From Lachnospiraceae bacterium (lineage in GTDB: Bacteria; Bacillota; Clostridia; Lachnospirales; Lachnospiraceae): 64,000 nucleotides of DNA. Where the stretch lies: assembly GCA_022647575.1 (NCBI GenBank), contig JALCKY010000002.1:1-64000 (forward strand). Reading direction: 5' to 3'. The position numbers were made by a program, and so were the translations under genes. The notes beneath the pieces are model-generated. The model saw only the letters and a list, made by a program, of their open reading frames with translations, searched no databases and was not told the DNA's origin. Position 1 is the first letter of the stretch, and each line of letters opens with the position of its first letter. This document shows, one piece after another, positions 10,359-28,098 of this stretch.

Positions 10359-11132
10359 TCAGGTCAGTACTTTGCTCAGGAACTCCTGAAGCCTGGGTTC
10401 TTTCGGATGGTTGAAGAAGCCGTCAGGACTGTCATCGGCCTTGATGATGCCGTCCTCCATGAACACGATCCGTGTCCCGACTTCCTTGGCAAACCCCATC
10501 TCATGCGTTACGACAACCATTGTCATTTTATCCCTGGCCAGGGCTTTCATGAGATCCAGAACTTCGCCGACCATCTCCGGGTCAAGGGCCGAAGTAGGCT
10601 CGTCAAAAAGCATGACATCCGGATTCATCGCCAGCGCCCGGACAATCGCGATTCTCTGCTGCTGTCCGCCGGAAAGCTGTTTCGGATATGCATTGGCACG
10701 GTTTTCCATGCCGACTCTCGTCAGAAGCCCCATGGCAATATTCTTTGCCTCTTCGGGAGACTTGCCCTGCAGTTTCTCCGGGCCGAGCGTAAGGTTCCTC
10801 AGGATGGTCATGTGCGGAAACAGATTAAAATGCTGGAAGACCATTCCCATTTTCTGACGGTGCATGTCGATGTCGACCTTGGGATCCGTAATATCCGTTC
10901 CCTCGAAGAAAATGCGTCCTCCGGTCGGCACCTCCAGAAGGTTGAGACAGCGGAGGAAAGTCGACTTGCCCGAACCTGAGGGTCCGATCACGACCGTGAC
11001 GTCGCCCTTCCGGATATCCAGCGAAATGCCGTTCAGTGCATTGACCGTCTTCTTTTTATCGTTCGTGCCGATGAAGTGTTTCTCAAGGTTTTCCACCCGG
11101 ATCAGAGGCATTTCGGTTTGTTCAGTGGTCAC
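10359..11132 (-). CDS. Polar amino-acid ABC transporter, ATP-binding protein
   Basis: 257 residues of the GlnQ/ArtP type. Walker A is GPSGSGKST, the Q-loop [12 protein letters not shown], the signature LSGGQQQR, Walker [13 protein letters not shown], and the H-loop VVVTHEMGF. It couples ATP hydrolysis to uptake by the permease at 11122-11814. The start overlaps the permease stop by 11 bases. The operon order is binding protein, permease, ATPase, yerC. The substrate is an L-amino acid, but which one cannot be read from the sequence. Confidence 0.95.
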
Positions 11133-11814
11133 TTTCCCTCAGCCTCCTTTCCAGAATCGACACAAGCTTCGTGAAGATCAGCACGAAGAACAGGTAAATC
11201 AGCGCGACCGCAATCAGCGGCATAAAGGCGCTGAAGGTCCTGCTGCGGATAATGTCGCCTGCCTTTGTCAGGTCGCTCACCGCAATGTAGCCGGATACGG
11301 AAGTCTCCTTCAGAAGGGTAATGAATTCATTTCCCAGTGCCGGCAGGACATTCTTGAAAGCCTGTGGCAGGATGACATACAGCATCGTCCTGGAATAGCT
11401 GAAGCCGAGGCTTCTTCCGGCCTCCATCTGTCCCCGGTCGACCGACATGATGCCGGAGCGTACGATTTCCGAAACATAGGCGCCCGAATTCAGGCCGAAG
11501 GCAAGGACCGCCACGAAGATCTTGCTGATGTTCACGGAAGCAAAGACGACATAATAGATGATCATCAGCTGTACCAGCACAGGCGTCCCGCGGATGACGG
11601 TCGTATAGATCTGTGCAATGACGTTCAGGATCTTCAGTTTTCCGGTCGTATCGTGAGCCGAGCGCACGACTGCCACCAGGAATCCAAGCACGATGCCCAG
11701 GATGACTGCAAAAAACGTAATCAGCAGCGTCGTGCCCAGACCCGAAAGCAGAAGCTTCCAGCGGTCACCGTCGATAAAATTCAGTTGAAACTGATCGATT
11801 AAGTTCTGCATCAT
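11122..11814 (-). CDS. Polar amino-acid ABC transporter, permease
   Basis: 230 residues with about five membrane helices. It carries the HisM/GlnP-type region [17 protein letters not shown] and the EAA loop [36 protein letters not shown] that docks on the ATPase. The start overlaps the binding-protein stop as ATGA and the end overlaps the ATPase start, so the three proteins are translationally coupled. It would act as a homodimer in the cytoplasmic membrane. Confidence 0.95.
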
Positions 11815-12671
11815 CCCTGTACGATAATAACCTGTTTGCCGGTGTAATAGGAATCCGTGAAATCGACGGACTGCTTGCGTTCATCCGTCACCGTAAGTCC
11901 TGCCATCGCGAAATCCGCTTTGCCGGAAGTCACGGCTGTGATGATGGAATCAAAAGCCATATCGGAAACTTCGATCTCATATCCGATCTTGTCGCCGATC
12001 GCCTTTGCAAAATCGACATCGATGCCGATATAGTTCTGGCTGTCGTCAATGGATTCATACGGCGGGAATTCGGCATTCGTTGCCATGACCAGTTTTCCGT
12101 TCGGGTACTGCGTGCCTGCCGGAGAGGTATAGGTTTCGCCTGTGCCGTCGATGTAGAACGAAGTGATCTTGTCCAGCGTTCCGTCGCTCTTCAGGGCTTT
12201 GATGGCATCATTGATCTTGGACAGCAGGTCGCTGTTTCCCTTCTTCAGGGCGATGGCATATTCTTCTTCCGTATAAGGCGTTTCCAGGATCTTCAGTCCG
12301 GAGACCTGTTTCACAAAGGTCTGTGCCGGCTGGTCGTCGATGATGACCGCATCGATTTTTCCCTGTGACAGGGCCTGGACCGCTTCAAATCCCGTGTTGT
12401 AGCGTTCGACGTCTCCGACAGCCGTGTCGGAATCATCCGAAATATAGATATCGCCTGTTGTTCCGGTCTGGACGCCGACGGTCTTTCCCTTCAGGTCCGA
12501 GATGCTTGTGATTTTTCCGTCAGATGAAGCTCCGGAAGCGGCTGCTGAAGCTGCTGTCGAGGCTGCTGCTGAAGCTGCCTTGGACGTCGCTGTTGACGCC
12601 GAAGACGAGCCGCACGCCGCCATCGCAAGTGCCATGATTGATGCAAGTGCCACGCAGAATACTTTCTTCAT
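11811..12671 (-). CDS. Amino-acid-binding lipoprotein, circularly permuted
   Basis: 286 residues from ATG 12671, chosen for its GGGGGA Shine-Dalgarno and lipoprotein signal (MKKVFCVALAS, lipobox AMAAC with Cys20); a longer upstream frame lacks both. An Ala/Ser linker spans 21-52. The domain order is reversed. Residues 54-174 are the usual second half (ISDLKGKTVGVQTGTTGDIY, GKIDAVIIDDQPA, YAIALKKGNSDLL, DGTLDKI). After a joint at 175-192 come residues 193-286, the usual first half (KLVMATNAEFPPYE, IGIDVDFAKAIG, ADFAMAGLTVTDERK, VDFTDSYYTGKQ). One open frame covers both. Both halves keep family motifs, so it probably folds as a periplasmic-binding-protein type 2 with termini at the hinge. It delivers an amino acid to the coupled permease. 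Confidence 0.93.
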   Translation of the reverse strand: MKKVFCVALASIMALAMAACGSSSASTATSKAASAAASTAASAAASGASSDGKITSISDLKGKTVGVQTGTTGDIYISDDSDTAVGDVERYNTGFEAVQALSQGKIDAVIIDDQPAQTFVKQVSGLKILETPYTEEEYAIALKKGNSDLLSKINDAIKALKSDGTLDKITSFYIDGTGETYTSPAGTQYPNGKLVMATNAEFPPYESIDDSQNYIGIDVDFAKAIGDKIGYEIEVSDMAFDSIITAVTSGKADFAMAGLTVTDERKQSVDFTDSYYTGKQVIIVQG

Positions 12672-27162: not shown

Positions 27163-28098
27163 CTATTTGCCGAGAATCGTGATGTCCTTGCCGAACCACT
27201 TCTCGGAAACCTTGGCCATCGTCCCGTCGGCAGCCATCTCCTCCAGGACTTTCTCGACTTTGTCCCTCAGTTCCGTGTTGCCCTTGAGGAAGCCGACGCC
27301 GTACTGCTCATCGGAAATCGATTCATCCAGGATCTTGAAGTCCGAACCGTCGCTCCGATTCTGGATCTGGTAGCCGGCAACGATGATGTCCATCGCGACC
27401 GCATCCACCGAACCGGACTGGAGATCCATGAAAGCCGTGTTGTAATCCGCGACGCTCTGAACCGTAAACGTCGAAGAAAGTTCCGTCTTCTCACTCAGGG
27501 CTGCCTCTGCCGAAGAATCCGTCTGCACTTCAACGATTTTTCCAGCAAGTCCCTTGGAGTCCGTAATGCCGGAATCCGACCTGACGACGAAGACCTGTGA
27601 ATTGTTCAGGTAAGGCTCGCTCCAGGTGTAGTCATTCTCGCGTCCGTTGATCGTAAATCCGTTCCAGATGCAGTCGATGGTTCCCGCAGACAGCTCCGCA
27701 TCCTTGGCATCCCAGGCGATCGGCTGTGCCTTGAAGGTCAGGCCCATGCGGCTTGCCGCTTCCTTGGCAAGCTCCAGGTCAAAGCCCGTATAGCTGCCGT
27801 CGTCCGCCTTGAAGCCCATCGGCGGAAAGTCTGCATCAAACCCTACGGTAAACGTACCACCGGAAGATGACACCGACTCCGCGGAAGATGCATCCGCTGA
27901 GGCGGCAGAAGATGCCGCTGTTGACACTGCGGCAGATGACGCTGCAGACGACGCTGAAGATGCTGCCAATGATGCTGCCGTTGATGCTGCCGCCGATGCT
28001 GCTGATGATGAAGCTGAAGTTCCTGACTGACTTCCGCAGCCGGCCATCCCCAGTGCCAGGACAGCAGCCGCCGCAAAGCATAAAATTCTCTTTTTCAT
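27163..28098 (-). CDS. Amino-acid-binding lipoprotein with long Ala/Ser linker (second system)
   Basis: 311 residues. The signal is MKKRILCFAAAAVLALGMAGC with Cys21. A very long Ala/Ser linker runs from about 22 to 80. The binding domain has the normal order: FTVGFDADFPPMGF, YTGFDLELAKEAASRMG, GTIDCIWNGFTI, YTWSEPYL, then the second lobe (GLAGKIVEVQTDSSAEAAL, GSVDAVAMDIIVAGYQI, YGVGFLKGNTELRDKVEKVL). It contrasts with the permuted protein at 11811-12671. GGGGGAGG precedes the ATG. A strong promoter and a palindromic operator lie upstream. Confidence 0.94.
   Translation of the reverse strand: MKKRILCFAAAAVLALGMAGCGSQSGTSASSSAASAAASTAASLAASSASSAASSAAVSTAASSAASADASSAESVSSSGGTFTVGFDADFPPMGFKADDGSYTGFDLELAKEAASRMGLTFKAQPIAWDAKDAELSAGTIDCIWNGFTINGRENDYTWSEPYLNNSQVFVVRSDSGITDSKGLAGKIVEVQTDSSAEAALSEKTELSSTFTVQSVADYNTAFMDLQSGSVDAVAMDIIVAGYQIQNRSDGSDFKILDESISDEQYGVGFLKGNTELRDKVEKVLEEMAADGTMAKVSEKWFGKDITILGK

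Follow-up and report, generated by a model that had tools for sequence, protein, structure and literature searches.

Does the gene at 11811-12671 of a 64,000-nucleotide stretch of Lachnospiraceae DNA (the window) encode a natural circular permutation of a type 2 substrate-binding protein (SBP), as a preliminary description of the sequence had proposed? We compared the gene with family profiles, homologues in other genomes, predicted structures and known binding proteins.

Gene and domain order

The gene reads as a single open frame of 286 residues with no interruption (12671-11811, minus strand, by translation of the window ORF), and its domain order is signal peptide, D2, D1C, an 18-residue joint and D1N. 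It is the first gene of an SBP-permease-ATPase operon; an AGGGGG element lies upstream of its start, and it overlaps the permease gene in ATGA at 11811-11814. The features are:

12612-12671, minus strand: signal peptide with a weak lipobox, MAA/C20 (sequence)
12516-12611, minus strand: tether rich in Ala and Ser, residues 21-52 (sequence)
12150-12515, minus strand: D2-D1C, that is, lobe D2 plus the C-terminal part of lobe D1, residues 53-174 (profiles; own HMM, 170 bits)
12096-12149, minus strand: joint, residues 175-192, DGTGETYTSPAGTQYPNG (sequence; alignment of 78 permuted rows)
11814-12095, minus strand: D1N, the N-terminal part of lobe D1 up to and including the first hinge strand, residues 193-286 (profiles; own HMM, 146 bits)
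11122-11814, minus strand: PAAT-type permease (PF00528), ATGA-coupled to the SBP (ORF and profile matches)
10359-11132, minus strand: GlnQ-like ATP-binding subunit (PF00005; ORF and profile matches)
27163-28098, minus strand: SBP of canonical order, an internal control within the window (profile matches)

D2-D1C (residues 53-174) is the second half of canonical SBPs, and D1N (residues 193-286) is the first. Both PF00497 (Pfam, E 2.7e-35) and TIGR01096 (NCBIfam, E 2.7e-44) matched the 286-residue protein in two stretches, which stood in reversed order: the C-terminal half (194-285) corresponded to positions 1-91 of 132 in PF00497, and the N-terminal half (50-174) to positions 137-260 of 266 in NF008426. 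The SBP at 27163-28098 was matched by PF00497 and TIGR01096 in one stretch each, in the ordinary order. Our own half-domain profiles, which had the window protein among their rows, placed D2-D1C at 117-236 (170 bits) and D1N at 252-346 (146 bits) of the 347-residue stop-to-stop frame (L230). The ORF and the order of the Pfam and NCBIfam stretches thus bear out the proposal of one uninterrupted frame with swapped halves; the position and length proposed for the joint, the ordinary order of the other SBP and the ATGA coupling were also confirmed. The proposed lipoprotein signal stood in part: a signal peptide is present, and the lipobox MAAC, with M at −3, is a weak one. The break had been placed at the hinge crossing; it is at the hinge, precisely just past the first hinge-crossing strand and ahead of the first lobe-2 helix, and VIIV is kept at the new C-terminus.

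SBP_bac_3 (PF00497) scored 121.5 bits against a gathering score of 26.4, in two stretches whose order was D2-D1C-D1N and not the canonical D1N-D2-D1C. As the profile score does not require canonical order, the window protein can be filed by its sequence as a permuted PF00497 member; family profiles can show permuted genes as two partial matches. The scores for the TIGR01096 subfamily (151.6 bits against a curated cut-off of 256.35) and the GlnH model (114.6 against 303) fell short, and those for ArtJ, ArtI, HisJ and ArgT were further below. GlnP-like and GlnQ-like genes adjoin the SBP gene, as expected for a PAAT importer, with scores under the equivalog cut-offs. All matching profiles were SBP_bac_3 or other type II-like ones, which separates the protein from the Type Ic permuted LBP represented by TpMglB-2.

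Occurrence of the permuted order in other genomes

Among 61 genomes near that of the window, 15 gave a match at E ≤ 1e-30, in 17 places. Fourteen of these showed the window's order, singly or in an array, and three were canonical; two of the 14 were pieces of one frameshifted gene in genome G017 (L026/L032), a split that reflects either decay or sequencing error. In a scan of genome records, many of them metagenome assemblies, 78 of the best 80 loci carried the window's order: 62 as stand-alone permuted genes, 12 as permuted-permease fusions in one unit, and the others as double (two) or triple (two) permuted arrays fused to a permease. The remaining loci were a canonical triple fused to a permease (L067) and a frameshifted array (L078). 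One of the 12 fusions, L033, lies next to a gene permuted in another way, and two of the 62 stand-alone copies (L077 and L100) touch a contig end. Named hosts of the scan loci include Roseburia hominis, Ruminococcus bromii, Blautia schinkii (L081, L091) and Acetitomaculum ruminis, and the window's order also occurs in the complete genome of Ruminococcus sp. FMBCY1 (L041).

Wider samples were taken at order, class and phylum level; they overlap and were queried with a profile of permuted proteins, so their counts are not unbiased frequencies. At order level, 41 of 392 genomes matched at E ≤ 1e-60, and the 30 loci read comprised 29 permuted proteins and one canonical triple. At class level, 29 of 391 genomes matched at this threshold; 23 of the 29 loci read were of the window kind and six showed a second permutation. 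At phylum level, 3 of 348 genomes matched at E ≤ 1e-50, one of which (G877, outside the class) was also permuted. Its locus, L231, encodes a stand-alone permuted protein with a differing joint and is possibly a further permutation event. A search with a canonical query returned canonical loci only (16 of 16). The homologue search suggested in the preliminary description therefore found the same order many times over; its view that such permutation is rare in the family does not hold in this class, where many Clostridia genomes carry it.

A permease ORF followed within 300 bases in 58 of the 62 stand-alone copies, and an ATPase lay within 1500 bases in 55; three of the four copies lacking a permease (L072, L073 and L077) stop at a contig end. 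A simple lipobox pattern preceded D2 in 50 of the 62. No record of the plasmid collection aligned to 80% of the query at a single site. When the window and 16 of the 80 loci were scanned for riboswitch or T-box clues to the ligand, none was found in the window, and the sole matches were a T-box about 3 kb downstream of the SBP in L043 and an FMN element about 3.6 kb upstream in L042.

Conservation of the joint and of the binding positions

The gap between the half-domain matches was 14-22 residues in single-unit permuted ORFs, and across 78 permuted rows the joint was conserved at Y181 (97%), G192 (97%) and P184 (74%). T71, D112, T260 and R265 were invariant in all nine rows of alignment A1, which comprised the window and eight of the 17 near-genome places. 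These four residues match the amino-acid head-group contacts of known SBPs, as in GlnBP and LAOBP.

The canonical protein L147 was 62% identical to the window protein over D1N and 63% over D2-D1C. It was the top canonical match for the window's D2-D1C, and for D1N its 62% compared with a best value of 64%. A fusion of halves from two unlike SBPs is not favoured, because both halves are near-equally close to L147.

All 83 usable pairs had a dN/dS below 1, reaching 0.70 in some. The window gene was in none of the pairs; its nearest relative lay at dS 2.2 and the next two were saturated. These codon statistics are weak. Some relatives were frameshifted or cut.

Predicted structure

AlphaFold2 was run on structure alignment A2, which comprised the window and 77 of the 80 rows (L067, a canonical triple, L078, frameshifted, and L100, cut, were left out). 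The model from these 78 permuted rows had a pLDDT of 95.4 and a pTM of 0.89, with no stretch of three or more residues below pLDDT 50, and the ten-residue blocks containing the joint averaged 96-98. The permuted chain is thus confidently predicted to fold compactly as one domain.

The top Foldseek match was the GlnPQ SBD1-SBD2 tandem (6h30), which agreed with the model along the sequence but not spatially (TM 0.37, rmsd 19.6 Å); other matches among the best 50 listed had TM values of 0.34-0.52 on the query length. The low spatial fit probably arose because a permuted chain was given to a sequential aligner, and 6h30 would agree in order and not in space because D1N folds back on its own D1. 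PDB sequence searches (best 60 of 102 and best 60 of 92 matches, judged by the best stretch) showed no permuted type II chain; among these matches, 6h30 alone had a best stretch spanning D2-D1C and the joint and running into D1N. The order of profile matches, the many genomes, the confident one-domain model and the near-equal closeness of both halves to L147 together uphold a natural circular permutation.

Arrays, fusions and the number of events

In L070, L098, L079 and L088, two or three copies of D2-D1C-D1N precede the permease. Which halves pair in these arrays is ambiguous, since some inner D1N-D2 junctions are of near-canonical length. L067:2897-5770 and L135:364-3282 each encode three near-alike canonical binding domains in tandem, fused to one permease. 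Descent of the window kind from this canonical triple was unsupported, because the triple groups with canonical L147 (97/84). The window's own genome has a paralogue, L229:480-3278 (contig C1, about 714079-716877), with a permuted binding domain, a permease and an ATPase in one frame of 933 residues.

The permease started 5-6 profile positions past the hinge strand in 34 of the 39 fused ORFs and 14 or 17 past it in the other five; the 39 include frameshifted genes and at least four pairs that, by contig and length, are one gene counted twice (L002/L229, L018/L033, L026/L032 and L106/L138). The spacing in the three canonical fusions was 7, 12 and 25. The preliminary description considered a tandem fusion a likely origin. 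Such an origin of the window kind is plausible, as arrays in both permuted and canonical phase exist, although none of them is shown to be the ancestor.

A first tree of 122 rows had long branches and a mislabelled L078 (a frameshifted permuted double). A second tree used 54 of its rows, picked by hand; it leaves out most long-branch rows and, lacking L002, L027, L028 and L033, says nothing on the origin of these four. Four changes were needed for the window kind in the 54-row tree, the starred branches forced two, and 0 of 200 bootstrap trees had a single change. AU tests rejected one clade for all 36 window-kind rows (p 0.034) and one clade for the seven deep rows (p 0.043); for the 29 core rows, the window's among them, one clade was not rejected (p 0.404). 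The values against a single origin are marginal, and those for the core and deep groups are weakened because both groups were defined with the first tree already in view. A return from permuted to canonical order may also account for some of the changes.

A second and a possible third permutation

A second natural permutation (cpII), with the order D2b-D1C-D1N-D2a and a cut inside lobe 2, was found in eight genomes: L177-L181 and L183 came from the class search, and L191 and L192 from a later one. In these proteins the lobe-2 cut separates the helix that ends in EPAKAYVEAN from the strand LKIL. Five of the eight cpII proteins were compared with canonical L190, which was 79-80% identical to L177, L178, L180 and L181 over D1N+D2a and 63-76% over D2b+D1C; for L191 the values were 63% and 51%.

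In two genomes a cystine-type binding protein (L033:399-1280 and L199:1486-2319) is cut at the same lobe-2 loop as cpII. The L033 protein groups with canonical L004/L005, apart from six cpII proteins (support 100 in a quick tree with long branches), and its permutation is apparently a separate event. A single-sequence model of L033:498-1280 was uninformative (pLDDT 34.5, pTM 0.24). The cpII and cystine-type proteins resemble the window kind in being natural type II SBP permutations with the N-terminus in lobe 2, but they differ in having the break inside lobe 2. At least two permutation events are thus indicated by the differing break points, three if the quick tree is right, and perhaps more.

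Function and alternative explanations

The gene very probably encodes a working, lipid-anchored, circularly permuted type II SBP of a PAAT ABC importer. Judged from its sequence, its function would most likely be ordinary amino-acid capture for that importer by a protein hung from lobe 2. The N-terminal lipid, as the putative anchor, and the tether would run directly into lobe 2 (D2). The chain would then pass to lobe 1 (D1C), the short conserved joint would connect the former C-terminus with the former N-terminus, and the first hinge strand would end the chain. The protein would close on an amino acid between its lobes and hand it over to the permease as GlnH and ArtJ do. The permutation may have arisen by in-frame tandem duplication of the binding domain followed by the gain of new ends.

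That two half genes were joined in assembly or annotation is the least credible of the alternatives, with practically no chance of being right. Nothing in its favour was found, with one assembly of the window's genome searched; the window's order recurs across the near-genome, genome-record and order-level searches, and homologues in many separate assemblies carry it, including the complete genome of Ruminococcus sp. FMBCY1. A join inside the joint, named beforehand as one of two results that would overturn the permutation, is thereby rejected. The other such result, a predicted structure whose halves share no single cleft, is addressed in part by the confident one-domain model. The gene might instead be the remnant of a decayed tandem-SBD gene that kept its frame open by chance and lost binding, and the frameshifted or cut relatives L026/L032 and L078 would fit such decay. 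We consider this very unlikely, because the frame is intact and the head-group positions, operon and joint are conserved across genomes; the dN/dS below 1 in every usable pair of relatives, none of them with the window gene itself, also argues against it.

More substance attaches to run-on assembly, in which lobe 1 of each lipoprotein is completed by the D1N of its neighbour to give swapped dimers or rings. The tandem arrays, where the same halves stand in one polypeptide with ambiguous partners, and the top Foldseek match to the GlnPQ tandem would fit such pairing. However, the monomer model is confident by pTM and in its placing of the joint, the agreement with 6h30 is one of order and not of space, and the half-domain gap is steady in single-unit ORFs. 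Run-on assembly is thus unlikely, although a swapped dimer would also be compatible with a prediction made for a monomer, and a self-contained permuted domain is the preferred reading.

Relation to known binding proteins

GlnH, ArtJ and TmArgBP (PF00497, TIGR01096) share with the window protein the profile family, the head-group positions, the operon type and, as predicted from model and homology, two lobes with a hinge. In contrast to them, its halves are reversed, its N-terminus lies in lobe 2 and its C-terminus in the hinge strand, and it has an extra conserved joint. GlnPQ has SBDs in tandem linked to a permease, but each SBD is canonical and complete; the window's order arises in it where the D2-D1C of SBD1 meets the D1N of SBD2, which is why 6h30 came out best in both Foldseek and phmmer.

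TpMglB-2 (Tp0684) is a naturally circularly permuted, lipid-anchored glucose-binding protein for which 'Type Ic' was proposed, and its authors noted relatives in treponemes and Gram-positive bacteria and suggested a link to tethering (PMC4990184). It differs from the window protein in its type I fold, its sugar ligand and its break, as the first three N-lobe strands are moved to the end and there is a fourth hinge crossing (PMC4990184). A permuted type I binding protein is thus already known; among the papers listed by open full-text searches, judged by title and the start of the abstract, none described a natural permutation of a type II SBP.

In both permutation kinds the N-terminus enters lobe 2 and not lobe 1. 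The physical effect, which may be selected or neutral, would be that the protein, and any fused permease, hangs from the hinge or lobe-2 side rather than from lobe 1, and we propose this tether geometry as the main physical consequence of permutation. Tentatively, and with less than even confidence, we suggest that the type II SBPs of Clostridia were permuted repeatedly, with two or more different break points among at least three or four lineages, because a lobe-2 anchor (or, in fusions, a hinge-strand permease) improves opening, closing and docking; these proteins would then form an undescribed permuted subclass.

To our knowledge, natural circular permutations are seldom found together with a closely related unpermuted protein. 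In many Clostridia this much-studied fold is permuted, tandem arrays and permease fusions also occur, and the canonical sister L190 is about 79% identical to permuted cpII proteins over 168 residues in four of the five compared. With the arrays, the fusions and this close sister, one can test directly how permutation proceeded and how the position of the tether affects the action of a binding protein.
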